DNA from: an uncultured Verrucomicrobiota bacterium | GTDB lineage: Bacteria > Verrucomicrobiota > Verrucomicrobiia > Verrucomicrobiales > Akkermansiaceae | Assembly: GCA_913063525.1 (NCBI GenBank) | Contig: CAJXYV010000002.1 | Location: forward strand, 1-52,178 | Direction: 5' to 3' | Length of the DNA stretch: 52,178 nucleotides | In this document: piece by piece, positions 33,671-50,974 of the stretch | How positions within the stretch are numbered: position 1 is the first letter of the stretch | Layout of the letters: every line of letters begins with the position of its first letter | Position numbers and translations under genes: made by a program | Notes under the pieces: model-generated | Told to the model about the DNA's origin: nothing | The model's input: only the letters and a program-made list of their open reading frames with translations | The model's database searches: none

Positions 33671-34465
33671 TTAGTTCTGCGCCGTCACGGGCGGAGCCGA
33701 CTTGGAGCTATTGTTCTTGAGCGCGGATTCGGTCTGGGTCTTGAACCAGGTGTCAAACTGCGTCTTGGGAATCACTTCCATGGAGCCGACCATATTGCCG
33801 TGGCCCTCGCCGCAGAGTTGAGCGCAGACGACAAAGGTTTCGAGGGCTTTCACGGGGGTGAACCACATCGGGATTTCACGACCAGGGATGGCGTCTTGTT
33901 GGACGCGCATCGGGACGATGCAGTAGTTGTGGATCACGTCCTTGGTGCCGATGTTGAGAACGGCGGGTTGGCTGACGGGAAGCTTGAGGATCGGGCTGGT
34001 GAAGTCGTCAAGCGCGTTGGGGTCGGTGTAGTCGATGCCGAGTTCGTTGGTACCGGAGATGAGGTTCGGGTCGCGGCGGCCGAACTTGTTGTCGGCACCG
34101 GGGTAGTGATAGGTCCAGCCAAACTGCCAACCGACAACGCGGACGCGGACGGGGTTGAGGTTTTGCACGGTTTTCCAGCTATCGACACGCTCGGCCCAGA
34201 GCGGGAAGGCAAATCCGAGTAGCAAAACGGCTTCTACGATAATGACGCCGACTTCCAAGTGACTGGAAAGATGGCTGCGCACGCCTTCGTAGGAGGCTTT
34301 CGGGTTATTCTTATGCCAGAAGCGGAAAATGCAGTAAAAGAAGAACAGCGTCCAGCCGACGAAAAGCGCGATCATGAACCAGTGCACCACATCGATCATG
34401 TGGTCGACTTGGCCGCCGTGCGCGGAAAAGTTTTCGGGTATGCCTAGAAACTTGGATGGACTCAT
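33671..34465 (-). CDS. coxB: Cytochrome c oxidase subunit II
   Basis: CuA motif CAQLCGEGHGNM; two N-terminal TM segments. Confidence 0.93.
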   Translation of the reverse strand: MSPSKFLGIPENFSAHGGQVDHMIDVVHWFMIALFVGWTLFFFYCIFRFWHKNNPKASYEGVRSHLSSHLEVGVIIVEAVLLLGFAFPLWAERVDSWKTVQNLNPVRVRVVGWQFGWTYHYPGADNKFGRRDPNLISGTNELGIDYTDPNALDDFTSPILKLPVSQPAVLNIGTKDVIHNYCIVPMRVQQDAIPGREIPMWFTPVKALETFVVCAQLCGEGHGNMVGSMEVIPKTQFDTWFKTQTESALKNNSSKSAPPVTAQN

Positions 34466-35345: not shown

Positions 35346-36959
35346 TTACATCAAATAGAGGATCGGGAAGACAAAGATCCAGACCAAGTCGACGAAGTGC
35401 CAAAACAAGCCGCCGATTTCGACGCGGTTGGCGAGCCACTCTGGGTTGCTGAGATACATTTTTCGGCCGAAGAACAGATAGTAAGCGAGGACAAGAGCAC
35501 CGCCGATGACGTGCAAGCCGTGAAGGCCAGTAATCGTGAAGTAAATAGCGTAGTAGGGATTCCACGCCGGAGTGAACTTCGACTCAAAGCCGACCTGTTC
35601 GCGAGGAACCGAGAAGCCAGGGAAAGTTTCGTCGCCGCGAGCTTCGTAGTTAGGACCAAAGAATTCCTCCTTGAAAGCGTCGGCTGGGGCGAGTTTGGCA
35701 CGGCCTTCGTCTTCGGCCTTTTCAGCAAAGTCTTTCCAGCCAATGCGATAGAGTTCCTTGTGGGTCGGGAAGCGGATGGCTTTGCCGTCCTTGTCAGCAC
35801 CATAGTCCTTGAGCAGTTGCGCTTTGAGCTTGGCGACCTCGCCTTGATGCCATTCCCACGCTTGTTTCGCAAAGGGGCTGTTCTTGATGAGCCACGAATT
35901 TTCGATCGCGACTTCGGGGTCGATCCCTTTCTCTTCGGCTTTCATGGCGAGGTGTTGGAAGTCGATCGCATCGACGTGGTGGAACACCATCGGGCTGTCC
36001 AGCAACTTGCCATCGATGACGGTGTCGTCGCGCAGGCGCGACTGGGTCGCGGCCGGTTTGATGTCGCGCGGATGAAAATCGAAGTGAGCAGAAGGATCGA
36101 CCGTGAAAGCCACGGTGGAGATCTCGCTGAGCAACTGAGGAGTGACGACGGCCATGTCGATATTCACGCCATCGGCGATCTGCCAGCCGCGTTTATCGGG
36201 ATTGGCGGCCTTGGCCTTTTTCCACTCGTCGCGCAGGGCAGCCGTGCGGATCACTCCGTTGTGGCTGCGAGCCGCGAGGTGGGTCTTTTGGATGCGATTG
36301 AGGAGTTCGATCGACAGCGGTTCGCCAGCCTTCGCGATCACTTCGGCCGCCTGGCCTTCACGAGTGATTGCCGAGACATCGGCCGTCAGGACGATTTTCG
36401 AATGACGGTGTTCGGCTTGGGTGAGGAGTTCCTCGACCCATGGCTTATGAAAGCGAACGGTGTTGAAAGTGAGCTTGGAGGTTTCGACGTTGATGAGGTT
36501 TTCCTCGATCTTGTTGCCCTTGTGATCGAGCACGGGCTTGTCGTCCTCTGTTTCATAGCCCAAGTGGCCTTCGATGACGGAATAGTCCTTGAGACGGAGT
36601 GCTTGGTGATGGAGTTTGACATTATATTCCACGCCCTTGAGGACCATGAAAATGAGCGCACAGAAAACCGTGATGCCCATGAAGATTTGGAACTTCCGCC
36701 AATCACGCAGCTTCAGGGATGCCCAGGCAAAAACCACGGTCACCGATGAACCGATGAGCACGAAGGTATTAATCAAACCTGGCAGCACAGGCAGGGTGCG
36801 CTCGGGCCACGGGAAGTCGGCACCGAGGCGCAGAAACACATAGGCCGAGAAGAAGCCGCCGAAGAGCATGACTTCGGAAGCCAGGAACAGCCAGATCGCG
36901 ATCTTCGAATTGAAGAGGCCGGTGTCCTTTCGGGGAGTGACGACGTAGGGAATTTCCAT
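35346..36959 (-). CDS. coxC: Cytochrome c oxidase subunit III with a large internal insertion
   Basis: IAIWLFLASEVMLFGGFFSAYVFLRL and YFTITGLHGLHVIGGALVLAYYL...GLFWHFVDLVWIFVFPILYLM flank about 340 aa of non-TM sequence. Confidence 0.88.
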   Translation of the reverse strand: MEIPYVVTPRKDTGLFNSKIAIWLFLASEVMLFGGFFSAYVFLRLGADFPWPERTLPVLPGLINTFVLIGSSVTVVFAWASLKLRDWRKFQIFMGITVFCALIFMVLKGVEYNVKLHHQALRLKDYSVIEGHLGYETEDDKPVLDHKGNKIEENLINVETSKLTFNTVRFHKPWVEELLTQAEHRHSKIVLTADVSAITREGQAAEVIAKAGEPLSIELLNRIQKTHLAARSHNGVIRTAALRDEWKKAKAANPDKRGWQIADGVNIDMAVVTPQLLSEISTVAFTVDPSAHFDFHPRDIKPAATQSRLRDDTVIDGKLLDSPMVFHHVDAIDFQHLAMKAEEKGIDPEVAIENSWLIKNSPFAKQAWEWHQGEVAKLKAQLLKDYGADKDGKAIRFPTHKELYRIGWKDFAEKAEDEGRAKLAPADAFKEEFFGPNYEARGDETFPGFSVPREQVGFESKFTPAWNPYYAIYFTITGLHGLHVIGGALVLAYYLFFGRKMYLSNPEWLANRVEIGGLFWHFVDLVWIFVFPILYLM

Positions 36960-37028: not shown

Positions 37029-38900
37029 TCAGTGCTTGTCTGGTGCCTCGAGGTGCTTGGGTTCGATCCACTGGGGAAGGAAATCCGAATCGCAATCCGG
37101 GCGGCTGTATTCGTAGGGGCCGCGATAGGTGACGGGCTCCACGAGGAAATTACCGTGGCCCGGAGGTGTTGGCGTTGCCCACTCGAGGGTGGTGGCGTCC
37201 CACGGATTGTCGTTTTCCACCTTTTTGCCAAACTTCCACGACGTGAAGAGATTGATGATGAAAAAGATTTGGAAAAAGGCCATCGTCCACGCCCCCATCG
37301 ACATGATGATGTTCATGTCAATGTGCTGAACAACGGTATTGCCGAAGATGTTCACGCTGTCTTGAGCCTTGGAGAGATAAGCATCGCCACCATTGTACCA
37401 ACGGCGATGGAAGCCCGCCATCCCTTGCACCAACATCGGGAAGAAAATGAGGTTCATGCAGATCAAGCTAGGCCAGAAGTGCAGGTGGTTGAGAGTTTTA
37501 CTCATGTAACGGCCGGTGATCTTCGGGTACCAGTGGAGGACACCTGCAAAAAACCCGAACAGAATCCCCGGAGCAACCACGTAGTGGAAGTGACCGATGA
37601 CATAGTAGGTATCGTGGAGGTGGAGATCCGCCAGATTGAAGGCCAACGGCAAGCCGGTGAGGCCGCCGATGCCGAACATCGGGATGAAGGCGCAGGCCCA
37701 CATCATCGGCGGAGTGAAGCGAATCGAACCGCCCCACAGCGAGATGAGCATAGCGGTAATAATTACCACCGATGGAACTGAGATGAGAACCGTAGTGGTT
37801 TGGAAGAAGGTAGAAACGGCGGCACCCATGCCGGTCATGTACATGTGGTGAGCCCAGACGACGAAGGAGAGGAACCCGAGAACCAGCACGGAGTAGACCA
37901 TCGACTTGTAGCCCCACAGCGGCTTGCGCGTGTTGGCTGGGATGATTTCACTCACACAAGCAAAGGCGGGCAGCAGCAGCACATAGACTTCCGGGTGACC
38001 GAGGAACCAGAACAAGTGTTGGAAGAGCAGCGGCGAGCCACCACCCGACAGATTGGCAAGACCCTCGGTCTTGGTGAACAGGCCGGATGGCATGAAGAAC
38101 GACGAATGTGCCACGCGGTCCATCAATTGCATGATGCCAGCCGCTTCGAGCGGCGGGAAGGCAAGCAAGAGAAGGAAACCCGTCACCAGCATCGACCAAA
38201 CGAAAAACGGCATCCGCATCCAGGTCATTCCGCGGACGCGGAGATTGATGATGGTGGTGATGAAATTCACCGACCCAAGGAGCGACGAGGTGATCAGCAG
38301 CACCAGTCCCAGCAGCCACTGGGTTTGCCCCGCCAGCCACTGGTTGACGATTTGGCCGTCGGCGAAACCGGCGAGCGGAGAGTAATTGGTCCAACCCGAC
38401 TTGGCGGAGCCCGACTCGAGGAAAAACGACGAACACATGATGATGCCCCCGAGGAAGTAAACCCAATAACTGGCCATGTTCAGGCGCGGAAACGCCATAT
38501 CCACCGCACCGATTTGCAGCGGTGTAACATAGTTACCGAAGGCACCGAAGCCCAGCGGCACAATCCCAAGGAACACCATGATCGTACCATGCATGGCACC
38601 AAACATGTTGTAAGTCTCCCCTGTCACCTTGCCGTCCTGCAACCAGCGCGCCTTCCAGCCGTCGGTGAAGACCCAGCTCATCCATTCAGGAAGCGGCTGA
38701 TGCGGAAAAGCGATACTCCAGCGCATCACCATCATCAGGTAGAAGCCGAAAGCGAGGAAACACATCGCGGTGATTCCGTACTGGATGCCGATCATTTTAT
38801 GATCGGTGGAGAAGACCCATTTCCGGAGAAACCCCGGATCGTGGTGATGATCTTCGTGGTGGGCGTCGTGCCCGGCAGGTGAGGTGGCGTGAGAGCTCAT
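37029..38900 (-). CDS. coxA: Cytochrome c oxidase subunit I (A-type), ligands intact
   Basis: MFGAMHGTIMVF; WFLGHPEVYVLLLP; VWAHHMYMTGM; YVIGHFHYVVAPG. Confidence 0.96.
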   Translation of the reverse strand: MSSHATSPAGHDAHHEDHHHDPGFLRKWVFSTDHKMIGIQYGITAMCFLAFGFYLMMVMRWSIAFPHQPLPEWMSWVFTDGWKARWLQDGKVTGETYNMFGAMHGTIMVFLGIVPLGFGAFGNYVTPLQIGAVDMAFPRLNMASYWVYFLGGIIMCSSFFLESGSAKSGWTNYSPLAGFADGQIVNQWLAGQTQWLLGLVLLITSSLLGSVNFITTIINLRVRGMTWMRMPFFVWSMLVTGFLLLLAFPPLEAAGIMQLMDRVAHSSFFMPSGLFTKTEGLANLSGGGSPLLFQHLFWFLGHPEVYVLLLPAFACVSEIIPANTRKPLWGYKSMVYSVLVLGFLSFVVWAHHMYMTGMGAAVSTFFQTTTVLISVPSVVIITAMLISLWGGSIRFTPPMMWACAFIPMFGIGGLTGLPLAFNLADLHLHDTYYVIGHFHYVVAPGILFGFFAGVLHWYPKITGRYMSKTLNHLHFWPSLICMNLIFFPMLVQGMAGFHRRWYNGGDAYLSKAQDSVNIFGNTVVQHIDMNIIMSMGAWTMAFFQIFFIINLFTSWKFGKKVENDNPWDATTLEWATPTPPGHGNFLVEPVTYRGPYEYSRPDCDSDFLPQWIEPKHLEAPDKH

Positions 38901-38934: not shown

Positions 38935-39699
38935 TCAGGGTGCCTTGGCAGGGGCGAGAGTGATAGGATCAAGGAGAGTCTTGGGATCGAGCTTTTCGCC
39001 CGGCAGGTCCTTGAGGTGATCGGCGGAGAGTTCTTCGGCGGTCACCGAGTTACCCGCGTTTTTGCGGGCTGCGGAAATCTCAATAGCCGCCTTTGCCATG
39101 TCGAGGGTGATCACGTCGCCCTTGGTATTGCCGAAACTGCTACGGACGTAGGTCATGATTCCAGCAAGGTCCTCAGGAGTCATACCAATTCCTTGTGGTG
39201 GCATGACACCATACGTGATGCCGTCATGCACAGGACCTTGGAGACCGTTGAGAATGATCATCGCAAAACGCTCGGTTTCGCCGTTAGGCCATGGTGTACC
39301 CGCCAGCGACGGGAAGGTCGAACCATTACCCTTGCCATCGGAACCGTGGCAACCGTTGCACTTGGCGGAATAGATTTTCGAGCCTTTGGCCATGTAGGCG
39401 GCAAGTGCTTCCTTTGGGAGCGGACCAGTGTCTTCGGCACCACCGGCAGGAGTTCTGACGTAATTTTCACGAAACAGAGTGCCATAGGAGAACCAATGCC
39501 CGGCATCGCCTAGAATCCCACCCGCGATCAGGAGAACCACGCCGCAAGCGACGAGAGCCCACAGCGAAATCGGCGCGATGCCGTTATCGACAATCCGCTT
39601 CTCGCGAGCACATGCGGCAGCATCGCGGACCGCAACACCGTGAGCTTCGGTCACATTGATCGATTCTTCTAGGTCTGGCTTTTCGTTAGGAAGAGACAT
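38935..39699 (-). CDS. Membrane-anchored monoheme cytochrome c
   Basis: CNGCHGSDGKGNG; N-terminal TM. Confidence 0.85.
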   Translation of the reverse strand: MSLPNEKPDLEESINVTEAHGVAVRDAAACAREKRIVDNGIAPISLWALVACGVVLLIAGGILGDAGHWFSYGTLFRENYVRTPAGGAEDTGPLPKEALAAYMAKGSKIYSAKCNGCHGSDGKGNGSTFPSLAGTPWPNGETERFAMIILNGLQGPVHDGITYGVMPPQGIGMTPEDLAGIMTYVRSSFGNTKGDVITLDMAKAAIEISAARKNAGNSVTAEELSADHLKDLPGEKLDPKTLLDPITLAPAKAP

Positions 39700-39723: not shown

Positions 39724-40437
39724 TTATTTCGCGGAGCCCTTGGCCTTAGCAGGCGAGAAGTTTAGGACTGCGGGAACCGCTTGGTCTTTTTTAAGCGAGA
39801 GAAGGTAGGAAACAAGGGCCTTTGCTTCTGGAGTTGGAACTAACTCAGTGCCTTCGTCGGCATTTCCGAACGGCATGGCATCTTCCGAGGGATTTCCCGT
39901 GATCTTGCGCTTGGTGAACATGAAGTGGTGGGGCGGACAGGTGGACTGCCAAAGCTGAGGATCGAGGCGTGGATTGTAGAGGTGAGTGAAGAGCCAGATG
40001 GATGGGTCTTTACCCGCAGCGTAATTAGACTCCACGCGGCGGCCGAGATTGGACAAATCAGGACCCATGCGGGAGACACCGATCTGGGCGAACTTTTCGC
40101 CGAAGAAGTCGTAGGCGTTGGTTTCGCGCCGGGTGTCGCCGCGATCAGGATCTGCCTTCAAGCCGCCCCAATCTGGGCGATAAAGGTCATTGCCCGCATA
40201 AGTCGGGCGAACGACCTGCGTGTGGCAAAGATAACAGCCGTTTTCGGCATAGACTCTGGCACCATCGGCCACCCGCCCCGTGCGTTTCGGGAAGAAGATG
40301 CCGGTGGTCCCATCTGTTGCTTCTGATAGTTGGATCGGCGCCAGATTGCGCATGGTGATAAATGGCACCACGATGACCGCAAGCCACGCAACGCCAAAGC
40401 TGGCTGATAGTCCGAGAATGAATGTACGAAAGCTCAT
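39724..40437 (-). CDS. cbb3-type oxidase subunit II (CcoO)-like cytochrome c
   Basis: GARVYAENGCYLCHTQVVRPTYAGNDLYRPDWGG; GPDLSNLGRR; DAMPFG. Confidence 0.88.
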   Translation of the reverse strand: MSFRTFILGLSASFGVAWLAVIVVPFITMRNLAPIQLSEATDGTTGIFFPKRTGRVADGARVYAENGCYLCHTQVVRPTYAGNDLYRPDWGGLKADPDRGDTRRETNAYDFFGEKFAQIGVSRMGPDLSNLGRRVESNYAAGKDPSIWLFTHLYNPRLDPQLWQSTCPPHHFMFTKRKITGNPSEDAMPFGNADEGTELVPTPEAKALVSYLLSLKKDQAVPAVLNFSPAKAKGSAK

Positions 40438-40464: not shown

Positions 40465-41970
40465 TTAGTGGGCGCTGATGTATCCGGGGCCAGCATTGTC
40501 GATATCGCCTTCCTCGCCGTGCGGGCTGGAAGCATGTCCGTGCGCGGCATCGAAGAGAGTCGGATGTTGACTGCGCCGCCCGAGGCGCAACCACATCAAG
40601 GCGAGGTGAATGAAAAAGAAGATATTGGAGAATAGGATGAAGCACCAGGCGATCGTTGTTCCAACCGCGTATGGGTAGGCGCGGCTGGCGGCGTTCTGCC
40701 ATGGTTGTTGCCAGTCTTCCTGACCGATCCCCTGCTCGAATCCGCCGAAAATGGCGAACAATGCGACTGCCATGATTCCATAAACCGAGAACAAGAAGTG
40801 AATCTTGATCAGGCGGCGGGAAAGCCACTCGCGGCGTGTCACCCGCGGCACGATAAAGTAAACCGCACCGAACATGACAAAACTGAAGAAGCCATAAAGG
40901 GCGAGAATTTCAAACCCATAACCGGAGAGTGAGAACTGCGTGAGCGGCAGGGTCGAATCTGGCAAGTTCAACACAACCGCGGAGCATGCCAGAAGAATCA
41001 GGCCGCCAATCCCTGCAAGGGTGAAACGAAGGGATGGGCTGCTGGCCAAAATCTCTGGCGACGAGATCGCGGTGCGCAGAAGATTGATGGCGGCGGAAAT
41101 CGTCGGCACAAAAAGCATGACGGTGGCTGCAGCACCGACGTATGGCAGGAAGTAAGGGATCGGCGCACCTGCCAGCTTCTGCATGCCCGCCCAAGGAGCG
41201 ATAACGGCGAGTGACCAGAATCCGAGTTTTGCCAGCGAATAGCTATAAACGGGCTGGCCGGTGATTTTGGGTGCGAGGTAATAGGCAGTTCCCAGCGCCA
41301 CGGGTGTGAAGAAGAGGAACGTGAGGGCCGACTTATACCAGGCATTGATACCGGCAGCCATCACCGGATGGCCCGGCAGGCAGTGAAGCAAGGTGTTTGC
41401 GGTGATGAAGATCCAAGGGAACCAAACGATGGCCGCCAGTAGATACCACTGTGAGATATAGACGTGGCCCTCGGGCCGAACGCGGAATTGGATGAATGAC
41501 CAGATGACAATGGCGAAGTAACTGGCGAGCAAAACCGGCCAGGCAAATGCAGGGAATTCCATCCATGGCATTCCCGTGCTCGAGCCCGAAAGGATTCCCA
41601 CGAGACCCAAGAAGACTCCGAGATTCCATACATGACCCGCGACTAGAATCAATCCGGCAGCAGTGCATTCTTTGCGCGATAGCCGGGCCATCATCCAGAT
41701 GATCACCGCAAACGCTGCCTGAAATCCCCAGCCATAGATAAAGGCGTTGATGTGAGCCGGAAAGACGCGGCCATAGGTCAGCCATGAGCAGCACGACAGA
41801 AAGCCGGGTGCGTGAGCCTTCGCCGAGGAGATAATGCCCAGAACGATTGAAACCGCGAGCCAGGCGGCACCGCTGGTCAGGAAAAACATCACGGGGTGAC
41901 GTAGCGAACGGTCGATCCCCGCGCGAAGCAAGGCGTCCTGTTCAGTGGTAGTTGAGATGGCGGAAGACAT
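40465..41970 (-). CDS. cbb3-type oxidase subunit I (CcoN) homologue lacking active-site ligands
   Basis: CcoN-like TM pattern (YGRVFPAHINAFIYGWG, LAPKITGQPVYSYSLAKLGFWSL, FGAVYFIVPRVTRREWL) but no CuB/heme b3 histidines. Confidence 0.85.
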   Translation of the reverse strand: MSSAISTTTEQDALLRAGIDRSLRHPVMFFLTSGAAWLAVSIVLGIISSAKAHAPGFLSCCSWLTYGRVFPAHINAFIYGWGFQAAFAVIIWMMARLSRKECTAAGLILVAGHVWNLGVFLGLVGILSGSSTGMPWMEFPAFAWPVLLASYFAIVIWSFIQFRVRPEGHVYISQWYLLAAIVWFPWIFITANTLLHCLPGHPVMAAGINAWYKSALTFLFFTPVALGTAYYLAPKITGQPVYSYSLAKLGFWSLAVIAPWAGMQKLAGAPIPYFLPYVGAAATVMLFVPTISAAINLLRTAISSPEILASSPSLRFTLAGIGGLILLACSAVVLNLPDSTLPLTQFSLSGYGFEILALYGFFSFVMFGAVYFIVPRVTRREWLSRRLIKIHFLFSVYGIMAVALFAIFGGFEQGIGQEDWQQPWQNAASRAYPYAVGTTIAWCFILFSNIFFFIHLALMWLRLGRRSQHPTLFDAAHGHASSPHGEEGDIDNAGPGYISAH

Positions 41971-41993: not shown

Positions 41994-42749
41994 TTAAGGT
42001 TTGGTGAGTTCCGCAGCAGAAACTTGAGGTTTACCCACCTCACTGCGAAGCGCGGCGACTTGCTCGGGCTTGACGGCCGAAGCCTTATTGCCAAAACTAT
42101 TGCGCACGTAGGTAAGGACACCGGCGATTTGCTCGTCCGTCTGATAGGCAAGCGCCGCCATGCCGCCCGGCATGTTGTATTCCGTCCCCTTGACCGAAAT
42201 CGGACCTTGGAGACCCCGGAGTTGGATACGAATGAGATTGGAAATCGGCCCCTTGACCCATTCCGAACCGGCAAGCGGCGGTGCAATCGGACTACCTTCA
42301 CCATTTTGGCCGTGGCAGGCAGCGCAGACGAGGAATTGAGTTTTGCCGATCGCCATGACAGCAGGATCAATCGGAGCCTCAGCCGCATCTGAAACATCGA
42401 TCGCCTTGGTATCAACGGCTGGCGCTGATGCGAGTTTTTTGGCAGTATCGGAACCCGGCACGAGCTGGGCAGGCTGCTCAACCGCTAGTGGTTTGGTAGC
42501 AGCAAGCTGCTTGGCAAGTTTCGGAATAGTGGCATCAAGGACTTCAGGCGAGATGTTAGCTGCCTGAGCCGCATCGATTTTTGCCTTGGTGATGTAGCGT
42601 GACTTGGCAGCTGCATCTTCCATAGTTGTTGGATCGGAGTGATTGAATAACCAAATCACTGCGAGCATCACAGCAAAGATGAAGAAGGTGCCAAGAGCCC
42701 ACCAGAAAGTAGTGAAGCGGATGATCAGATTGTCGCGGGATGGGTCCAT
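41994..42749 (-). CDS. Membrane-anchored monoheme cytochrome c (ATG at 42749)
   Basis: CAACHGQNGEGSPIAPPLAGSEWVKG; N-terminal TM; ORF-track start 42929 overlaps the upstream gene. Confidence 0.85.
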   Translation of the reverse strand: MDPSRDNLIIRFTTFWWALGTFFIFAVMLAVIWLFNHSDPTTMEDAAAKSRYITKAKIDAAQAANISPEVLDATIPKLAKQLAATKPLAVEQPAQLVPGSDTAKKLASAPAVDTKAIDVSDAAEAPIDPAVMAIGKTQFLVCAACHGQNGEGSPIAPPLAGSEWVKGPISNLIRIQLRGLQGPISVKGTEYNMPGGMAALAYQTDEQIAGVLTYVRNSFGNKASAVKPEQVAALRSEVGKPQVSAAELTKP

Positions 42750-42765: not shown

Positions 42766-44076
42766 TCAGTTAGAAACGTTTGCGGACTCGAGAATGCGAG
42801 GGTCGCGATTCGGATAGAGTGAATGCTGACCCAAGGCGCGGATGAGGATAAAGAGGAATGCCGCACCGATGGTGACAAATGCGAGGATGTCACCCCAGAA
42901 GGCTCCGGGAATCGCCACTTGGATATCACCGAATACTTCCGGCTTGATATGACCCAAAGAAACGCCGCGCTCAGGAATCGTGATCAGGTAATGATCGAGG
43001 GCGTGCATGCAGAGCGTGTAAACGGCGACGATCGAAAGCATCTTCGGATTCTTCTTCAACCACGCTTGGAGCAGGACGACAAAAGGAACGACGAAGTGAC
43101 CGAAGACGAGGAAGTACATGGCAATGTTCCAGTTGCCCGTATTGCGAATGGAGAAGTAGGAGGTTTCCTCGGTGATGTTCGCATACCAGATAAGGAAAAA
43201 CTGGGAGAAGGCGATGTAGGCCCAGAAGGTGGTGAATGCGAACATCAGCTTGCCCATGATGTGGAAGTGTTCCGAGGTCGTCACATGCTTGAGATGACCC
43301 ATGCTCTTCAGCCAGGTGCAAACAAGAACGATGACCGCCATTGAGTTCAGCGCGGTGCCGGCAAACAGATAGACACCCCACATCGTCGAGAACCACTTGT
43401 AATCGAGGCCCATCAGGAAATCGAAGCCGGTGAATGTGATCGTGAGTGCAAAAATGATCAGAGGATAATTGGAGTGGTAGCGCGCCGTGAGCAGGCGGGC
43501 TGTTCCGGGATTAGGATCGGTATCCTGAGCCGTCGAGAGCTTGCGAAGGCCATAGATCACCGCACTGAGACCGATGCCATAGAAGGCGAAACGACCGTAC
43601 CAGAATGGCAGATTCATGAACCAATGCTTGTTCGATAGAAGATGCTCGTGGTGATGGAGATACTCCTTCACCTCGCCTGGAGCGGCGCGGTGGATATTCA
43701 TCCATTCGTAGAGATAAACCTGAACCTGTGGGAATAGCAGCGGCAAGCCGAACAGAAAGACCCACGGAAAGGTCGAGCCCAGGTTTTCAAAGGTGCGACG
43801 GACGGAGGTGCCCCAACTTGAATTGGAGACGTTGTGCAACAAAGTCCAGAAAACGCCACCGATCGAAAGCGTCAGGAAATAATAAAAGGCAAACAACCAG
43901 GAATAGGCGAATGGCCCACGAAGTTTTTCGGAAGCAAAAAACAACAGGTAGATGCTGGCGACGCTGCCTAGCACGGCCACGATCAAGGCCATGCGTTTCA
44001 CTTTCGAAACCTTGGAGGAGTCGAGGTGATCGCCGTTGATCGCGATGTCTGCGGATGTGACGTGGTGGTGAGCCAT
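42766..44076 (-). CDS. actF: Alternative Complex III, ActF-like quinol:cytochrome c oxidoreductase subunit
   Basis: Multi-TM protein in ACIII gene order; ATG at 44076 (MAHHHVTSADIAINGDHL). Confidence 0.8.
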   Translation of the reverse strand: MAHHHVTSADIAINGDHLDSSKVSKVKRMALIVAVLGSVASIYLLFFASEKLRGPFAYSWLFAFYYFLTLSIGGVFWTLLHNVSNSSWGTSVRRTFENLGSTFPWVFLFGLPLLFPQVQVYLYEWMNIHRAAPGEVKEYLHHHEHLLSNKHWFMNLPFWYGRFAFYGIGLSAVIYGLRKLSTAQDTDPNPGTARLLTARYHSNYPLIIFALTITFTGFDFLMGLDYKWFSTMWGVYLFAGTALNSMAVIVLVCTWLKSMGHLKHVTTSEHFHIMGKLMFAFTTFWAYIAFSQFFLIWYANITEETSYFSIRNTGNWNIAMYFLVFGHFVVPFVVLLQAWLKKNPKMLSIVAVYTLCMHALDHYLITIPERGVSLGHIKPEVFGDIQVAIPGAFWGDILAFVTIGAAFLFILIRALGQHSLYPNRDPRILESANVSN

Positions 44077-44098
44077 TACTATAAAGTCAGTAAAAGAG

Positions 44099-44749
44099 TT
44101 ATTGGGCCTTGGTTTGTGCCTCTTTGGCAGCCTGCAGCGTTCGGACATAGGCGACAATCGCCCAACGGTCGCGAACGGAGATGTTGTAGCCGTAGCCACT
44201 CATCATGCCCTTACCGTTAGTGATGGTTTCAAAGATGCGACCATCGGGGTAGGACGCAGATTTGAAGTTATTCATGTGGAAATTGGCGATGCCGGGTACG
44301 CCGTACAGACCGGTGATCCCTTGCCCGTCTCCCGACTTGCCGTGGCAGACGGCGCAATAAATCCCAAAGCGCTCTTTGCCGCGCTGAATCAAGGATGAAG
44401 CGCTTTCCTCGGTGAGTTGCAATTCCTGTGGCATGCCATTGCCGAAATAATCACCGACGTGACCCGTGTAGTAATAACCGGTCTGGCCGCCGAATTCGTA
44501 TTCGGGAATACCGCCAATGGATTGAGCCCCCGCTTCATTGAAGCCGCGTGGCTGGGTTTGGCCCACCGGAAGTCGGCTGCCGTGGCCGTCTGCAAAGAAC
44601 GCGTCAGGCTTCTGGGCGCGGATCTTGTCCTGGGTATCCATGTCCGGAAAAATCTGGATTGGAGGCTTGGAAAACTTCTGGCCGCGGACTCCGAAGACTC
44701 CGACGACGAGCAGCGCAATCAGTGCGTAAGCGAGGAAAAAGTAGCGCAT
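44099..44749 (-). CDS. actE: Alternative Complex III, ActE-like cytochrome c
   Basis: CAVCHGKSGDGQGITGLYGVPGIANF. Confidence 0.85.
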   Translation of the reverse strand: MRYFFLAYALIALLVVGVFGVRGQKFSKPPIQIFPDMDTQDKIRAQKPDAFFADGHGSRLPVGQTQPRGFNEAGAQSIGGIPEYEFGGQTGYYYTGHVGDYFGNGMPQELQLTEESASSLIQRGKERFGIYCAVCHGKSGDGQGITGLYGVPGIANFHMNNFKSASYPDGRIFETITNGKGMMSGYGYNISVRDRWAIVAYVRTLQAAKEAQTKAQ

Positions 44750-44799: not shown

Positions 44800-45354
44800 T
44801 CAATCTTCTTCTTCGACAAGTTCGATGTTAGCCCCGCCGATTTCGGCGAGCAGGTCGCGCGTCCCATTGGGCGTAAATTTCGGATCACGGGCCTCGATCG
44901 CGATAAAAAATCCATCGTCCGTCGCCTTGCGGAACTGGTCACTTGCAAACAAGGGGTGATTGAGGCGAGGAAGTTGAATCAGGCCCAATAGACCGAAGAG
45001 AACCGTAAATCCGGAAAACAGGATCGTCAGCTCGAACATGATCGGGAAAAACGCAGGAACCGTGAATATGTTCACGGGCTTCGACTGCACCACCGTCGGA
45101 TAGATCACCACTTGGGTCGTGTAGGCGAGCGCAAAGGCCGTCGCCGTTCCGGTCATACCTCCAAAGAACACAAACCAAGGAAGGATCGAGCGTTTCATGC
45201 CCATCGCCCCGTCGAGGCCGTGAATCGGGTATGGAGAATAACAATCCCATTTCCTGAAGCCGGCGTCGCGGATTTTTTCAGCGCCCTTGTAAAGAGCGGA
45301 TGCGCTCTTGAACTCGGCGAGGTAGCCGTAAACGCGTTTGCGGGTGGTGCTCAC
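44800..45354 (-). CDS. actD: Alternative Complex III, ActD-like (DUF3341)
   Basis: YGYLAEFKSASALYKGAEKIRDAGFRKWDCYSPYPIHGLDGAMG. Confidence 0.88.
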   Translation of the reverse strand: MSTTRKRVYGYLAEFKSASALYKGAEKIRDAGFRKWDCYSPYPIHGLDGAMGMKRSILPWFVFFGGMTGTATAFALAYTTQVVIYPTVVQSKPVNIFTVPAFFPIMFELTILFSGFTVLFGLLGLIQLPRLNHPLFASDQFRKATDDGFFIAIEARDPKFTPNGTRDLLAEIGGANIELVEEED

Positions 45355-45385: not shown

Positions 45386-46861
45386 TTATTTGGAGGAAAC
45401 CAATTCCTTTTGATAGGCGGCTTCGATCACAACACCGTGGTCTGCATGCTCTTGAAGATCGTCGTGGTGTGGATCTGACTCCAGAAGAGTCCATTTGACC
45501 TCGGCGATGTTGATGCATGGCAGGAAGCGAAGGAACATCAAGAACAGAGCAAGGAATAAGCCAATCGTGCCGACAAAGGTCATCAGCTCGACACCACTCG
45601 GCGAATAGGTCTTCCAGTCACCAGGAAGGAACATCCGGGCCAAGGTCGTGCAAATGATGACGAAGCGCTCAAACCACATCCCGACGTTGACGCACATCGC
45701 AACAACCATGATCACCCAGAGGTTTTCGCGGCATGCTTTGAACCAGAAAACCTGAGGCGAAAGCACATTGAGGCTCATCATCGCTGCGTAGGCCCACCAG
45801 TATGGACCCGCGATCCGGAATTTGAAGGCGTCCATTTCATAGATGGCGCCCGAGTAGAAGGCGACAAAAAGCTCCATCAAGTAGGCATATCCGACGATCG
45901 TACCTGTAAGGAGGATGATCTTGGCCATGTTGTCGATGTGCTTCATGGTGATCAAATCCTGCAAGCCATAGATGAAACGGGCAGGCACCATGATGGTGAG
46001 CACCATGGCGAAACCACCGAAGATGGCACCGGCTACGAAGTAAGGCGGGAAGATCGTGGTGTGCCAACCGGGAACCACCGAGGTTGCAAAGTCGAACGAG
46101 ACGACCGAGTGAACCGAGAGCACCAACGGTGTGGAAAGCGCCGCAAGGAGCAAGTACGCCATTTCATAGTGACTCCACTGGCGGTTCCCCCCGCGCCAGC
46201 CGAGTGAAAAGATACCATAAAGAATCTTACGAATGCCTGGCTTGCAACGATCGCGGATGGTGGCGAGATCGGGAACCATACCGAGATACCAGAAGATCAG
46301 AGAAATCGTGAAGTAGGTGGAAACGGCAAACACGTCCCACAGCAGCGGCGACTTGAAGTTCTGCCAAATCGCATTGGCGTTCGGCACCGGTGCCAGAAAC
46401 CATGCAAACCAGACCCGACCGACGTGGAAGGCAGGGAAAATCCCGGCGCAGATCACGGCGAAAATCGTCATCGCCTCTGCCGCGCGGTTGATGGAAGTCC
46501 GCCAGTTTTGGCGGGTTAGGAATAGCACCGCCGAGATCAGCGTCCCCGCGTGGCCGATACCGATCCAAAACACGAAGTTGGTAATATCAAAACCCCAGAA
46601 GACCCGGTTCGACATCCCCCAGACACCCACACCCGTGGAGACCAGATAGGTCAAACCACCACCGACGCCGATGAGAGCAATCAGTGCGGATGGAATGAAA
46701 AGCAACCACCACAAAAAGGGTTGCCGATTTTCCAAAACACCGCAAATGCGTTCGGTGATCCAATTGTATGAACGGCCGCTGAGGATGAGCTTTTCGCGCT
46801 CAAGCACCGGGATTTTCACTCCGGTGTGGGTCTCAGGTGCCGTATGGGTGGTAGAAGCCAT
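45386..46861 (-). CDS. actC: Alternative Complex III, ActC-like NrfD/PsrC membrane subunit
   Basis: [44 protein letters not shown]. Confidence 0.92.
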
Positions 46862-46897: not shown

Positions 46898-49800
46898 TCA
46901 GGCCATGTGAATGGTCGCCTTGCCGACAAATTTCGCGTCCGGCATGGCCGGATTCGGGTTCTTGACGCGCGCCAGATAACTGGTGCGCGGCCGGGTGCCG
47001 ATGTAGTTGAGGAGATCGTAGTTACGGTCGATGCGCTTGCTGCGACCGAGTGCGGATTTCTCTTCGTCGAGAAGGTTGCCGAAGGTGATGGCGCCGGCGG
47101 GGCAAGCGTCTTGGCAAGCGGTCTTCACCGAATCCACCGGGATGCGGAGGGTGTTGACGTTGACCTGCATTTCGGTGGAAGCCTTGCCAGCGACGAGAGC
47201 CTCTTGCTTTTGACCCTGCTTCTGACGAATCACCGAATCCTTGAGACGTTGCACACAGTAGGTGCACTTCTCCATCACACCGCGCATGCGGACCGTGACG
47301 TTCGGATTCTTCTGAAGATGTGGGGCTTCGCCCACTTGTTTCTCACCAAACGGCCCCTTATAAAGGTTATGGGCGATCAGCGGGTTGCGCTTATTATAGT
47401 CGAAATAGTTGAAGCGGCGCGCCTTGTACGGGCAGTTGTTTGCACAATAGCGCGTTCCGATGCAACGGTTATAGGCCATTGCATTGAGGCCGTCTTCCGT
47501 GTGAATCGTTGCATTGACTGGGCAAACGGTCTCGCAGGGCGCGGACTCGCACTGGACGCAGGCCACCGGTTGGGGAACCATTTCCGGATTGCCTTCGTCG
47601 AAGGTATTGTCCTTTTGCGCGGCGAAGTAGCGATCCATCCGGATCCAGTGCATTTCGCGGCCCATGGCGACCTGTCTCTTGCCAACAATCGGAATATTGT
47701 TCTCCGATTGGCAGGCAACGAGGCAGGAGTTACAACCCATGCAAGAGGAGAGATCGATCGACATACCCCACTGATGGAGAGGATCGCTGAGTAGCGGCTT
47801 GCCGGCACGGTCTTTAGGTTGGTAAAGCGAGACCGTCGGCGGCGCGTGGGAATCGTTGCCTTGTTTCGGCACATTCGCGAGTTGGGCGGCGAACGAACCT
47901 TTTTCCTCGTCGCCAAGAGTCGAAACCTCGCGGGCCAGGGCGCGGCCATACATCGCGTTGTGCTCTTGGGTGAGGGCGACCGAGTAGCGGAGAGTCGTCG
48001 GAGCCACCTTCGCACCGGTGGCGAAATAGGCCGTGGCAGCCGTACGGAGTGGATAGGCATTGAAACCGCGGTTCACACCGACGAGGCCGACGTGAGATTC
48101 GTTTTTCGGTCCACGCTTGAGTTCGTCGTGCTTATCAAAGCCTTGGCCGTAACCGAGCGGGATGACAATCGTGTTTTCAGCTTGGCCGAAGGAAACGAGA
48201 ATCGGGATTTCCAGTGTCTGACCGTTAACCGCCAGGCGAATCATCGGCGACGTGCGGTTTTGGGCCTCGTCGTCAGGAGAACGCGATGCGAAGTCCGTTT
48301 CGAGCTGGATAATTTGGTCGTAAATCCCCAGCTCCTTGGCGGTGCTCGGGGCGACAAGTGCGACGTTGTCCCATGTGAGCTTGGAAATCGGATCGGGAGC
48401 CTCTTGCAGCCAGCCATTATCAATCCAACGACCGTCGAAGATCGACGAGTCGGTTGCGAAAATCACCTCGAGCGAATCCTTGGTCGGCGGTGTCGCAACG
48501 ATCGGCGCAGACAGGTCGCCGCGCAGTTTCGGGTTAGCGATCGGATAGGAAGAACCCGCGAGGAAACCATCGCGAAGCAGCTTTTTCCAAGCCGTATCCC
48601 CTGCCCCGCCGAGTGTGGAGAAAGTCGCGCGGACGGCGGTATAGGCGGGTGATGCCGCGCCTTTTTCGCCTTCGCCATTAAGAAGCTTTCCGTCGTTAGA
48701 AAGCAAGGCGAGCAGCAACTCCAACTCCGAAACACAATCCTTGTAGAGCGGCAGAATCATCGGCTGCACTACCGTGTAGGTACCACTCGCGCTGCGAGCA
48801 TCCGACCATGATTCTAAATAGTGGGCGGCAGGAAGGTGCCATGTCGAAGCATGAGCCGTCGCATCCGTGCGGGTACCGAAGTGGATGCTCGTCTTAAGTT
48901 TGGCATATGACTCGCCGAACTTGAGATCGGCCGGAGCATCATAAAGCGGATTGGAAGGTGTAAGAACAATGAGGGTATCGACCGCCTTCGCGTCGATGTC
49001 ATTTTTCAGCGCAGCGAGATTACCGAGGCCCTTCGTTCCAGTTTGGACAGCGAGAAGCGGTTTGCCCTCTCCGATGTTGCCGAGCGACTGGTTGATCGCA
49101 TGGGCGAGCAAGTGAAGCGCCAGCGACTGGCGGGAACCTGCGAGAACCAAGGATTTTCCAGCGTTCGCCTTCAGGTCATCCACGAGGCCATTAACCCATG
49201 CAACATGCTTCGGATCGGAAAGTTCGGGAGAGACGATTGCCACACCGGCTTTCACGCCGAGTCCGCGAGCGATTTGCGCAGCGACGGCGGTCACCTGGCT
49301 AGGAGAAACCCGCAAGCGGTGATCCGCCATGCCACCGGTGAGGGTGAACGCAGCTTCCACCGAGTAGAGACGGTTCATTTTCGACGCGTCCGGCTTACCC
49401 TCGTAGGATTTGCCCTCGGGCTTACGGCGGTCGAAAAACGCGGTGACCGGTCCTTGCGAATCGGTGCCGGCAAAGTCGCAGTCGAGTGAAACGATGCGAT
49501 CCGCTTTGGCGAAGTTAGCGACCAGTTTCACCCCCTCGCCCAAGGCCACGGCGGACGATTCGCCGGTGAGAGCTTCATATTGATAGAATTTGGCAGAAGA
49601 GAACTTTGTGGCCAACTCCTGTGTCAGGCGGGCGCGGGTCGGGCTATCATCGGCACCGAAAAGGAATCCAACCTTGGCCGACTTATCCGTCGCGATGGTG
49701 GCCAGCGCCGCCTCGAAATCAGCGCGTGCTGCCGCGTTTCCGCCTTTGAGAATTTTGCGCGAGCGCGATGGCGAGTAGAGATCTAACACCGATGCTTGGG

Positions 49801-50230
49801 CAAAGGCATCCGTTCCTTCGGAATCCGGGTGAAGGTGGTTAGGAGCCAGCTTGGTCGGGCGGCCTTCAAAGGTCGTCACCACCAGCGGCGTCGCGCCGTG
49901 GGCGCGTGGCATCGCAGAAGCATAGTAGGTCGCCTTGCCTGGGATCACCCATTCCGGTGCCTTGGTGTAAGGGACGATGTAGGATTCAGGGCGGCGGCAC
50001 GCTGCCATGCCAAAGCCGGCGAGAGCCGTCGATGCGCCCATCAACTTCAAGAACGAACGGCGCGATGTCTCGGCATCTTCCTCGTTGGCCATCTCCGCAG
50101 CGCCTTGCGGGAACTCGCGGTCCAGCCACTGGCGGAAGTCGGCGGTGTCTTCCAGTTGACCCACACTGCGCCAGGCGACGGTGGTTTCGCCGGCGGGAAC
50201 CTCGGGGTGATGCAAAATGCGCTTGCTCAT
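46898..50230 (-). CDS. actB: Alternative Complex III, ActB-like molybdopterin-oxidoreductase/ferredoxin fusion
   Basis: Twin-arginine RRSFLKLMG; C-terminal CMGCNSCLVACQSENN, CVQCESAPCETVCPVNA, CIGTRYCANNCPYKARRFN. Confidence 0.93.
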   Translation of the reverse strand: MSKRILHHPEVPAGETTVAWRSVGQLEDTADFRQWLDREFPQGAAEMANEEDAETSRRSFLKLMGASTALAGFGMAACRRPESYIVPYTKAPEWVIPGKATYYASAMPRAHGATPLVVTTFEGRPTKLAPNHLHPDSEGTDAFAQASVLDLYSPSRSRKILKGGNAAARADFEAALATIATDKSAKVGFLFGADDSPTRARLTQELATKFSSAKFYQYEALTGESSAVALGEGVKLVANFAKADRIVSLDCDFAGTDSQGPVTAFFDRRKPEGKSYEGKPDASKMNRLYSVEAAFTLTGGMADHRLRVSPSQVTAVAAQIARGLGVKAGVAIVSPELSDPKHVAWVNGLVDDLKANAGKSLVLAGSRQSLALHLLAHAINQSLGNIGEGKPLLAVQTGTKGLGNLAALKNDIDAKAVDTLIVLTPSNPLYDAPADLKFGESYAKLKTSIHFGTRTDATAHASTWHLPAAHYLESWSDARSASGTYTVVQPMILPLYKDCVSELELLLALLSNDGKLLNGEGEKGAASPAYTAVRATFSTLGGAGDTAWKKLLRDGFLAGSSYPIANPKLRGDLSAPIVATPPTKDSLEVIFATDSSIFDGRWIDNGWLQEAPDPISKLTWDNVALVAPSTAKELGIYDQIIQLETDFASRSPDDEAQNRTSPMIRLAVNGQTLEIPILVSFGQAENTIVIPLGYGQGFDKHDELKRGPKNESHVGLVGVNRGFNAYPLRTAATAYFATGAKVAPTTLRYSVALTQEHNAMYGRALAREVSTLGDEEKGSFAAQLANVPKQGNDSHAPPTVSLYQPKDRAGKPLLSDPLHQWGMSIDLSSCMGCNSCLVACQSENNIPIVGKRQVAMGREMHWIRMDRYFAAQKDNTFDEGNPEMVPQPVACVQCESAPCETVCPVNATIHTEDGLNAMAYNRCIGTRYCANNCPYKARRFNYFDYNKRNPLIAHNLYKGPFGEKQVGEAPHLQKNPNVTVRMRGVMEKCTYCVQRLKDSVIRQKQGQKQEALVAGKASTEMQVNVNTLRIPVDSVKTACQDACPAGAITFGNLLDEEKSALGRSKRIDRNYDLLNYIGTRPRTSYLARVKNPNPAMPDAKFVGKATIHMA

Positions 50231-50275: not shown

Positions 50276-50974
50276 TTAACGGTGGCAGGTGGCGCAAGTC
50301 GCCTTCGGGTTGACCATAAACTGCTCTTTCAACTTCAGACCCAGCTCCTCGGTCGTCTTCACGCCGAGTTGGGGGTTGTTCGAGATAAAGGTCTCCGCGT
50401 TGTAGGCGAAGTTGTAAACCTCCTCCAGCGGACGCAGGTTCTTCTCCGGCGCACGGTGGCAGTCCAAGCACCAACCCATCGAGTGGCTTTCCGCCTGATA
50501 GATCACCTCCATCTTGTTCACATTACCGTGGCAACTCTGGCAGGAGATCCCGCGATTGACGTGCGCGGAGTGGTTAAAATAAACGTAATCGGGTGCCTTG
50601 TGCACCCGCACCCATTCGATCGGCTTGCCGTCGTAGCCGGGATAAGTGACATCCATCGACTTGTGCAGCGGCGCCAGTTTCGGGCTGTCGCGCTGGACGT
50701 GCTGGTGGCAGTTCCAACAGGTGCTCCCCGTCGGCACGTTCGAATGGCCGGTCACATCCACAAACGAGTGGCAATAGCGGCAGTCCAGACCGACTTGATC
50801 GACGTGGATTTTATGGGAAAACGGAATCGGTTGTGCTGGCTGGTAGCCTACCACCTGCGCCTTTGGCGTCGCATAATAGGCAAAGGCAAGAGCCACACCC
50901 GCGGCTGTGGCTCCGGCACAGACAGCGATTTTGAGCGGCAGGAGATTGGACCAGCGAGGAAAAATATTTGCCAT
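50276..50974 (-). CDS. actA: Alternative Complex III, ActA-like pentaheme cytochrome c
   Basis: Five CXXCH: CRYCH, CWNCH, CQSCH, CLDCH, CATCH. Confidence 0.93.
   Translation of the reverse strand: MANIFPRWSNLLPLKIAVCAGATAAGVALAFAYYATPKAQVVGYQPAQPIPFSHKIHVDQVGLDCRYCHSFVDVTGHSNVPTGSTCWNCHQHVQRDSPKLAPLHKSMDVTYPGYDGKPIEWVRVHKAPDYVYFNHSAHVNRGISCQSCHGNVNKMEVIYQAESHSMGWCLDCHRAPEKNLRPLEEVYNFAYNAETFISNNPQLGVKTTEELGLKLKEQFMVNPKATCATCHR

Follow-up and report, generated by a model that had tools for sequence, protein, structure and literature searches.

Ligand-less CcoN-like proteins encoded with ACIII in Verrucomicrobiae as possible membrane scaffolds

Gene organization of the ACIII operon

The window analysed in this work, a stretch of 52,178 nucleotides from an uncultured bacterium of the Akkermansiaceae (assembly GCA_913063525.1, contig CAJXYV010000002.1), carries on one strand a tightly spaced operon with the order ActABCDEF (alternative complex III, ACIII), cytX, N, O, cytY, CoxA, CoxC, CoxD and CoxB. 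In the series cytX, N, O, cytY and CoxA, 23-34 bases separate each gene from the next. The features of this operon are the following:

50276..50974, minus strand: ActA of ACIII, a QrcA-like pentaheme cytochrome c with five CxxCH motifs
46898..50230, minus strand: ActB, Fe-S subunit of ACIII (profile match)
45386..46861, minus strand: ActC, NrfD-like quinol subunit of ACIII (profile match)
44800..45354, minus strand: ActD of ACIII (PF11821, E=5e-59)
44099..44749, minus strand: ActE, mono-heme cytochrome c of ACIII (profile match and synteny)
42766..44199, minus strand: ActF of ACIII (operon position and synteny; zero Pfam matches)
41994..42749, minus strand: cytX, an additional mono-heme cytochrome c (CAACH) with a membrane anchor, between ActF and N
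40465..41970, minus strand: N, a protein of 501 amino acids with the CcoN fold in which the CuB, heme b3 and Tyr ligands are missing (intact ORF)
39724..40437, minus strand: O, CcoO/FixO-like (Pfam FixO, E=1e-8), with CYLCH and the axial Met changed to Cys (STCPP)
38935..39699, minus strand: cytY, a CcoP-like, membrane-anchored mono-heme cytochrome c (CNGCH)
37029..38900, minus strand: CoxA, intact aa3-type subunit I (HPEVY, HH and HFHY ligands present)
35346..36959, minus strand: CoxC, a subunit III of 537 amino acids, enlarged by a long additional segment
34956..35297, minus strand: CoxD, subunit IV-like
33671..34465, minus strand: CoxB, subunit II (CuA motif CAQLCGEGHGNM)

The ORF of cytX extends back to position 42929, although translation probably begins with the ATG at 42749. 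ActA to ActF are all found in the order that defines an ACIII operon, and N is encoded with CcoO-like and CcoP-like cytochromes. Since the ligands of CoxA and the CuA motif of CoxB are present, the operon of N also encodes a working aa3 oxidase. Another contig of this genome encodes a fused cbb3-type CcoNO with all ligands present (L002).

The cytX gene occurs in the closer relatives of the window and is absent from most families of the class. The CoxC frames measured 450-640 amino acids in nearly all the checked loci of the order to which the window belongs, versus 225-295 amino acids in other lineages of the class; this extra segment might serve as a docking counterpart of N and O.

Fold and ligand residues of the N protein

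The N protein of the window was matched by Pfam COX1 (E=2.2e-39, 136 bits), and its residues 30-415 were aligned to the CcoN subunit of 3mk7 (E=3.4e-22). The AlphaFold model (pLDDT 85, pTM 0.88) has the 12-helix COX1/CcoN fold, and a Foldseek comparison with the PDB returned cbb3 CcoN proteins as top matches, with E=1.9e-19 for 3mk7 and TM values of 0.82-0.83 on the query and 0.88-0.89 on 3mk7. The NCBIfam ccoN profile (TIGR00780) gave 104.6 bits and its cut-off of 583 was not reached, so that an automatic tool is more likely to assign the generic name 'cytochrome oxidase subunit I' than the cbb3 oxidase name anticipated in a preliminary description of this DNA.

In the alignment to CcoN, the positions H60/H207/Y251/H257/H258/H345/H347 of P. 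stutzeri are occupied by H/S/A/Q/K/F/I, respectively. The ligand identities of these positions are well established from cbb3 structures. None of the three CuB histidines is left (H207 is replaced by S and H257-H258 by Q-K), the heme b3 ligand H345 is replaced by F and the cross-linked Tyr251 by A. Of the low-spin heme b pair, H60 is retained as H73, and its partner H347 is replaced by I. The same residues had been paired by eye in the preliminary description.

Histidines are located at positions 25, 53, 73, 113, 169, 196, 201, 391 and beyond, and there is none at 202-390, a stretch whose counterpart in CcoN carries all the CuB and b3 ligands. A shifted alignment cannot therefore rescue the ligands of the window protein, and misalignment was ruled out as the source of their loss. 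Similarly, in no ligand-less locus did all three of the tested sites have a His within three columns. Substitute histidines at the CuB/b3 positions of CcoN structures, which would have refuted the initial proposal that this protein should not reduce O2, do not appear. As the CuB and b3 ligands are gone from an otherwise intact CcoN fold, heme-copper chemistry with O2, judged on its residues, is not possible for this protein.

Conservation, selection and linkage to ACIII

Of 59 related genomes, 58 contained either the ligand-less protein or a CcoN relative. The form found in the window is 36-94% identical among relatives and clearly separate from the fused oxidases (27-30%). Two cultured relatives, Haloferula luteola and Luteolibacter pohnpeiensis, also have the ligand-less gene. 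Comparison of the window gene with close relatives yielded dN/dS values of 0.04-0.07, which argue against decay and which, together with this conservation, ruled out a pseudogene. The orthologues thus form a conserved ligand-less group that lacks the catalytic residues and is under purifying selection, and neither simple decay, already doubted in the preliminary description from the kept fold and open frame, nor an isolated decayed copy can be maintained.

The synteny ActA-F, N, O, cytochrome c runs through the class Verrucomicrobiae. In a phylum-wide sample, N co-occurred with ActD in 93 of the 94 class genomes with a strong ActD match, the survey of N/ACIII loci being confined to the phylum Verrucomicrobiota. 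The sole exception, G066, belongs to the family of the pMMO-bearing methanotrophs; here ActA-F is followed directly by CoxC, CoxD and CoxB, and the N, O and cytochrome c genes are missing (L226). Two loci from other classes (L227, L228) have ActF followed by Cox genes without N, with about 1-2 kb between them left unread. From these gene orders, a module of N, O and cytochrome c genes located behind ActF appears to be specific to the class.

Several further observations were made in the survey. Six loci with an ACIII-linked, ligand-less N (L054, L055, L056, L092, L100 and L102) come from MAGs titled 'Akkermansia muciniphila', a label that is probably wrong. G079, G082 and other genomes of family f1, genus g18 gave weak matches to ActD that stand alone (E 1e-9 to 1e-19); the genus of G079 and G082 is without N or strong ACIII. 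Second, longer CcoN-like copies of 550-634 amino acids were detected in three genomes that also have a ligand-less N (G076:C1:3783959-3785305, G157:C1:3668617-3669960 and G429:C6:311410-312774).

Intact and ligand-less forms of N

The catalytic residues were counted in 155 class loci, some of which derive from the same genome in two collections. All five residues were kept in 21 loci, two in 3, one in 27 and none in 104, and no locus among the 155 kept three or four. Intact N proteins show the motifs WWF[AG]HN, FY(N/S)W.G.HH and [GAS]H.H, occupy the same operon position as the ligand-less ones and, when linked to ACIII, score about 250 bits against ccoN, also below the cut-off of 583. In G059 (99% complete) an intact N is the only COX1-family, heme-copper oxidase protein (cytochrome bd was outside this check), so that the intact form, or ancestor of N, was probably a working O2 reductase. 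Each of the 33 ligand-less genomes whose oxidases were inventoried has at least one further COX1-family protein.

The residues found in place of the ligands vary by lineage (S/G/Q/N/E; K/R/E; F/Y/V/L). The one low-spin heme His that had been described as remaining is indeed kept in the window, as H73, but it is not invariant, its equivalent being found in 98 of 134 ligand-less loci and replaced by F or A in several families; 35 of the 134 lack both heme b ligands. The ligand-less N of L053, L144 and L145 retains both low-spin heme b histidines, from which heme-b-only forms probably exist in some lineages.

A tree of ACIII was built from ActB, ActC, ActE and ActF (74 loci, 2137 columns). On this tree the intact/ligand-less label needs at least nine changes, all forced by branches with SH-aLRT >=95, and 12 losses when no regain of the five residues is allowed. 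The tree of N itself needs 3 changes (86 rows) or 4 (43 rows), and its long branches attract each other; the tree of O needs 6, with 2 forced by starred branches. A single ligand-less clade was rejected both by the N data (p-AU 0.026) and by the ActC plus ActF data (p-AU 0.0098), which discards a single origin. Outside their own pairs, L168, L169 and L144 have an intact N as best match (62%, 56% and 55% identity, respectively), and for L168 this match is to intact members of its own family. All trees were quick searches and the exact number of losses is uncertain; that several losses were independent is secure.

The O subunit and the tethered cytochromes

Regardless of the state of N, none of the 160 loci that have an O gene has lost the heme-c motif CxxCH of O. 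The Met of the S-x-M-P motif, by analogy with CcoO the presumed axial ligand of heme c, is present in all 27 loci with an intact N. In loci with a ligand-less N, this column holds Met in 43, Cys in 81 and K/S/H/A/R in 9, the Cys being that of the window's clade (STCPP); the alignment of the window O with CcoO 8smr_F supports the assignment of the column. The change from Met to Cys makes conduction through O doubtful in the window's clade and weakens the case for O as part of an electron wire there, and with it the electron wire through O as a general mechanism. Both cytX and cytY retain CxxCH plus plausible Met ligands. As ActA has only five hemes, cytX and cytY are natural candidates for the cytochrome handover to aa3.

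Proposed role of N and alternative explanations

The reading preferred here, with a probability of about 0.6, is that an ACIII-linked, cbb3-like oxidase has repeatedly become a non-catalytic membrane scaffold, which in the window docks ACIII to aa3. What has been observed for N is its fold, the ligand loss and its recurrence, the class-wide linkage to ACIII, the purifying selection and the kept heme-c site of O. The step from these observations to a function is an inference: the same residues were lost many separate times and yet N was kept in the ACIII operon, so it is probably a scaffold, which would fasten O and the tethered cytochromes c to ACIII. No direct evidence of such a complex is available.

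According to the proposed sequence of events, a cbb3-like (C-family) catalytic subunit would have joined the ACIII operon, and probably the complex, in the ancestor of Verrucomicrobiae. The O2-reducing centre would then have been lost in the lineage of the window and independently in many others, with strong purifying selection remaining. The emptied N would keep the CcoO-like O, together with the membrane-anchored cytochromes c, attached to ACIII; in the window it would also dock ACIII to the aa3 encoded immediately downstream. Electrons may be transferred from menaquinol through ActB/ActC, the hemes of ActA, ActE and cytX/cytY to the CuA of CoxB and aa3, and the heme of O, with predicted His/Cys ligation, may be out of this path. 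The order of the genes in the window places N, O and cytY between ActF and the Cox genes, and this alone suggests a physical complex of ACIII, N-O and aa3. Many ligand-less families (L168-L179) have no cox genes in the next ~9 kb, hence bridging to aa3 is not general, and the loss of N, O and cytochrome c in G066 indicates that the module is not always needed. The broader version, an ancestral class-wide complex of ACIII with a cbb3-like oxidase, whose core was lost independently about ten times, methanotrophs included, and whose N was kept as an obligate structural ACIII subunit, is held to be slightly better than an even bet.

Alternatively, N could be an assembly or stability factor for O, cytX and cytY, or for ACIII, remaining outside the mature complex. 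The gene order and the conserved O and cytochrome c genes fit this possibility as well as they fit a scaffold, and it retains some weight while being considered unlikely: the intact homologue of N is presumably a stoichiometric core subunit, and a 12-helix chaperone retained for so long in the operon is a less simple explanation. It is also unlikely that N binds one low-spin heme b through H73 and a non-His ligand, passing electrons or sensing the quinone pool without O2 reduction. The frequent retention of the H60 equivalent and the three loci with both heme b ligands speak for it, and H73 in most relatives could reflect either a heme that is still bound or a role in structure only, but the partner residue in the window is Ile with no His nearby, F or A is found at H60 in several families and the loci devoid of both ligands still keep the gene. 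The preliminary description had left a structural and an electron-transfer module side by side; the structural one is better supported than electron transfer through N, since 131 of the 134 ligand-less loci have also lost at least one member of the low-spin heme b pair.

The conserved fold and the many invariant polar and aromatic residues would be compatible with another reaction, or with the conduction of ions along a proton path, in the emptied core. This is regarded as very improbable, because the replacing residues differ between lineages and no new shared site was formed. The same diversity of replacements, the rejection of one clade by both data sets and the intact nearest matches of L168, L169 and L144 make it improbable that the ligand-less N arose once and was spread by gene exchange, in which case the count of independent losses would be wrong, even though the N tree groups most ligand-less sequences with few changes. 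That N is a degraded gene heading for loss is hardly credible and has already been largely refuted. The missing module of G066 and the fast evolution of N just after ligand loss could be cited in its favour; however, the frame is intact in all but a few genomes of the window's order, the low dN/dS and presence in nearly all relatives point the other way, and N has been retained through very deep divergence.

Methanotrophs and published cbb3 oxidases

The genomes of family f8 carry pMMO genes, and on this basis the family is inferred to represent the verrucomicrobial methanotrophs. In four pMMO-bearing genomes (L194-L197), a single one of the five catalytic residues is left in the ACIII-linked N. 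The model of the methanotroph N has the CcoN fold, with TM values of 0.78-0.79 on the query and 0.85-0.86 on 3mk7. The other COX1-family proteins of G210 comprise aa3, a ba3 (E=2e-126 to 1ehk) and a cNOR (E=5e-89 to 3o0r), and no canonical CcoN was found among the COX1-family proteins of this genome.

A cbb3 oxidase is listed for this methanotroph group in a review (PMC8498564) and in three further papers (PMC6688271, PMC10205796 and PMC11102522); three of these four sources place the cbb3 genes beside ACIII, and high O2 affinity has been tied to the methanotroph cbb3 oxidase (PMC6688271). The methanotroph PQ17 is reported not to have a trio of oxidase types of which cbb3 is one (PMC8498564). 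The ACIII-adjacent 'cbb3 oxidase' of methanotrophs and Opitutaceae has the same locus and gene order as N. It is treated in publications as an active oxidase, whereas its subunit I is ligand-less in the four pMMO-bearing genomes examined. Therefore, the name 'cbb3 oxidase' has probably been published for some enzymes that are not oxidases, and the cbb3 assignment and O2 affinity in verrucomicrobial methanotrophs deserve re-examination.

Significance and comparison with known systems

The type of oxidase is routinely read from annotation to infer oxygen affinity and lifestyle, and the cbb3-like gene of Verrucomicrobiae cannot, as predicted from its residues, encode an oxidase in most sampled lineages. 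If the proposal is true, a respiratory oxidase has been recurrently converted into a pseudo-oxidase and, the core being lost in methanotrophs too, their 'high-affinity cbb3 oxidase' would not exist. Intact, heme-b-only, ligand-less and deleted forms at one operon position provide a natural series that bears on why an emptied oxidase is kept and on the as yet unresolved way in which electrons pass from ACIII to oxidases.

In methanotrophs and Opitutaceae, C-type oxidase genes have been reported beside ACIII before (PMC8498564), and this is not new. No earlier description of a ligand-less CcoN, of the recurrent loss of its catalytic residues or of the retention of the gene was found in the literature searched, subscription papers excepted. 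The superfamily of N is covered by a heme-copper oxidase database and classifier, which discarded sequences without six conserved His (PMC3084760), so that the ligand-less group would be filtered out.

With respect to the CcoN of cbb3 oxidases (3mk7, TIGR00780), N is alike in fold, sequence homology and its CcoO-like and CcoP-like neighbours, and differs in the absence of CuB, heme b3, the cross-linked Tyr and one heme b ligand and in a score far below the family cut-off. In the ACIII-aa3 supercomplexes of Flavobacterium johnsoniae and Rhodothermus marinus, a tethered or bound cytochrome passes electrons to aa3, and ActABCDEF is followed by the aa3 operon, as in the window (PMC8552683). The window differs from these systems in its ActA, with five CxxCH only, and in the CcoN/CcoO-derived module placed between ACIII and aa3.
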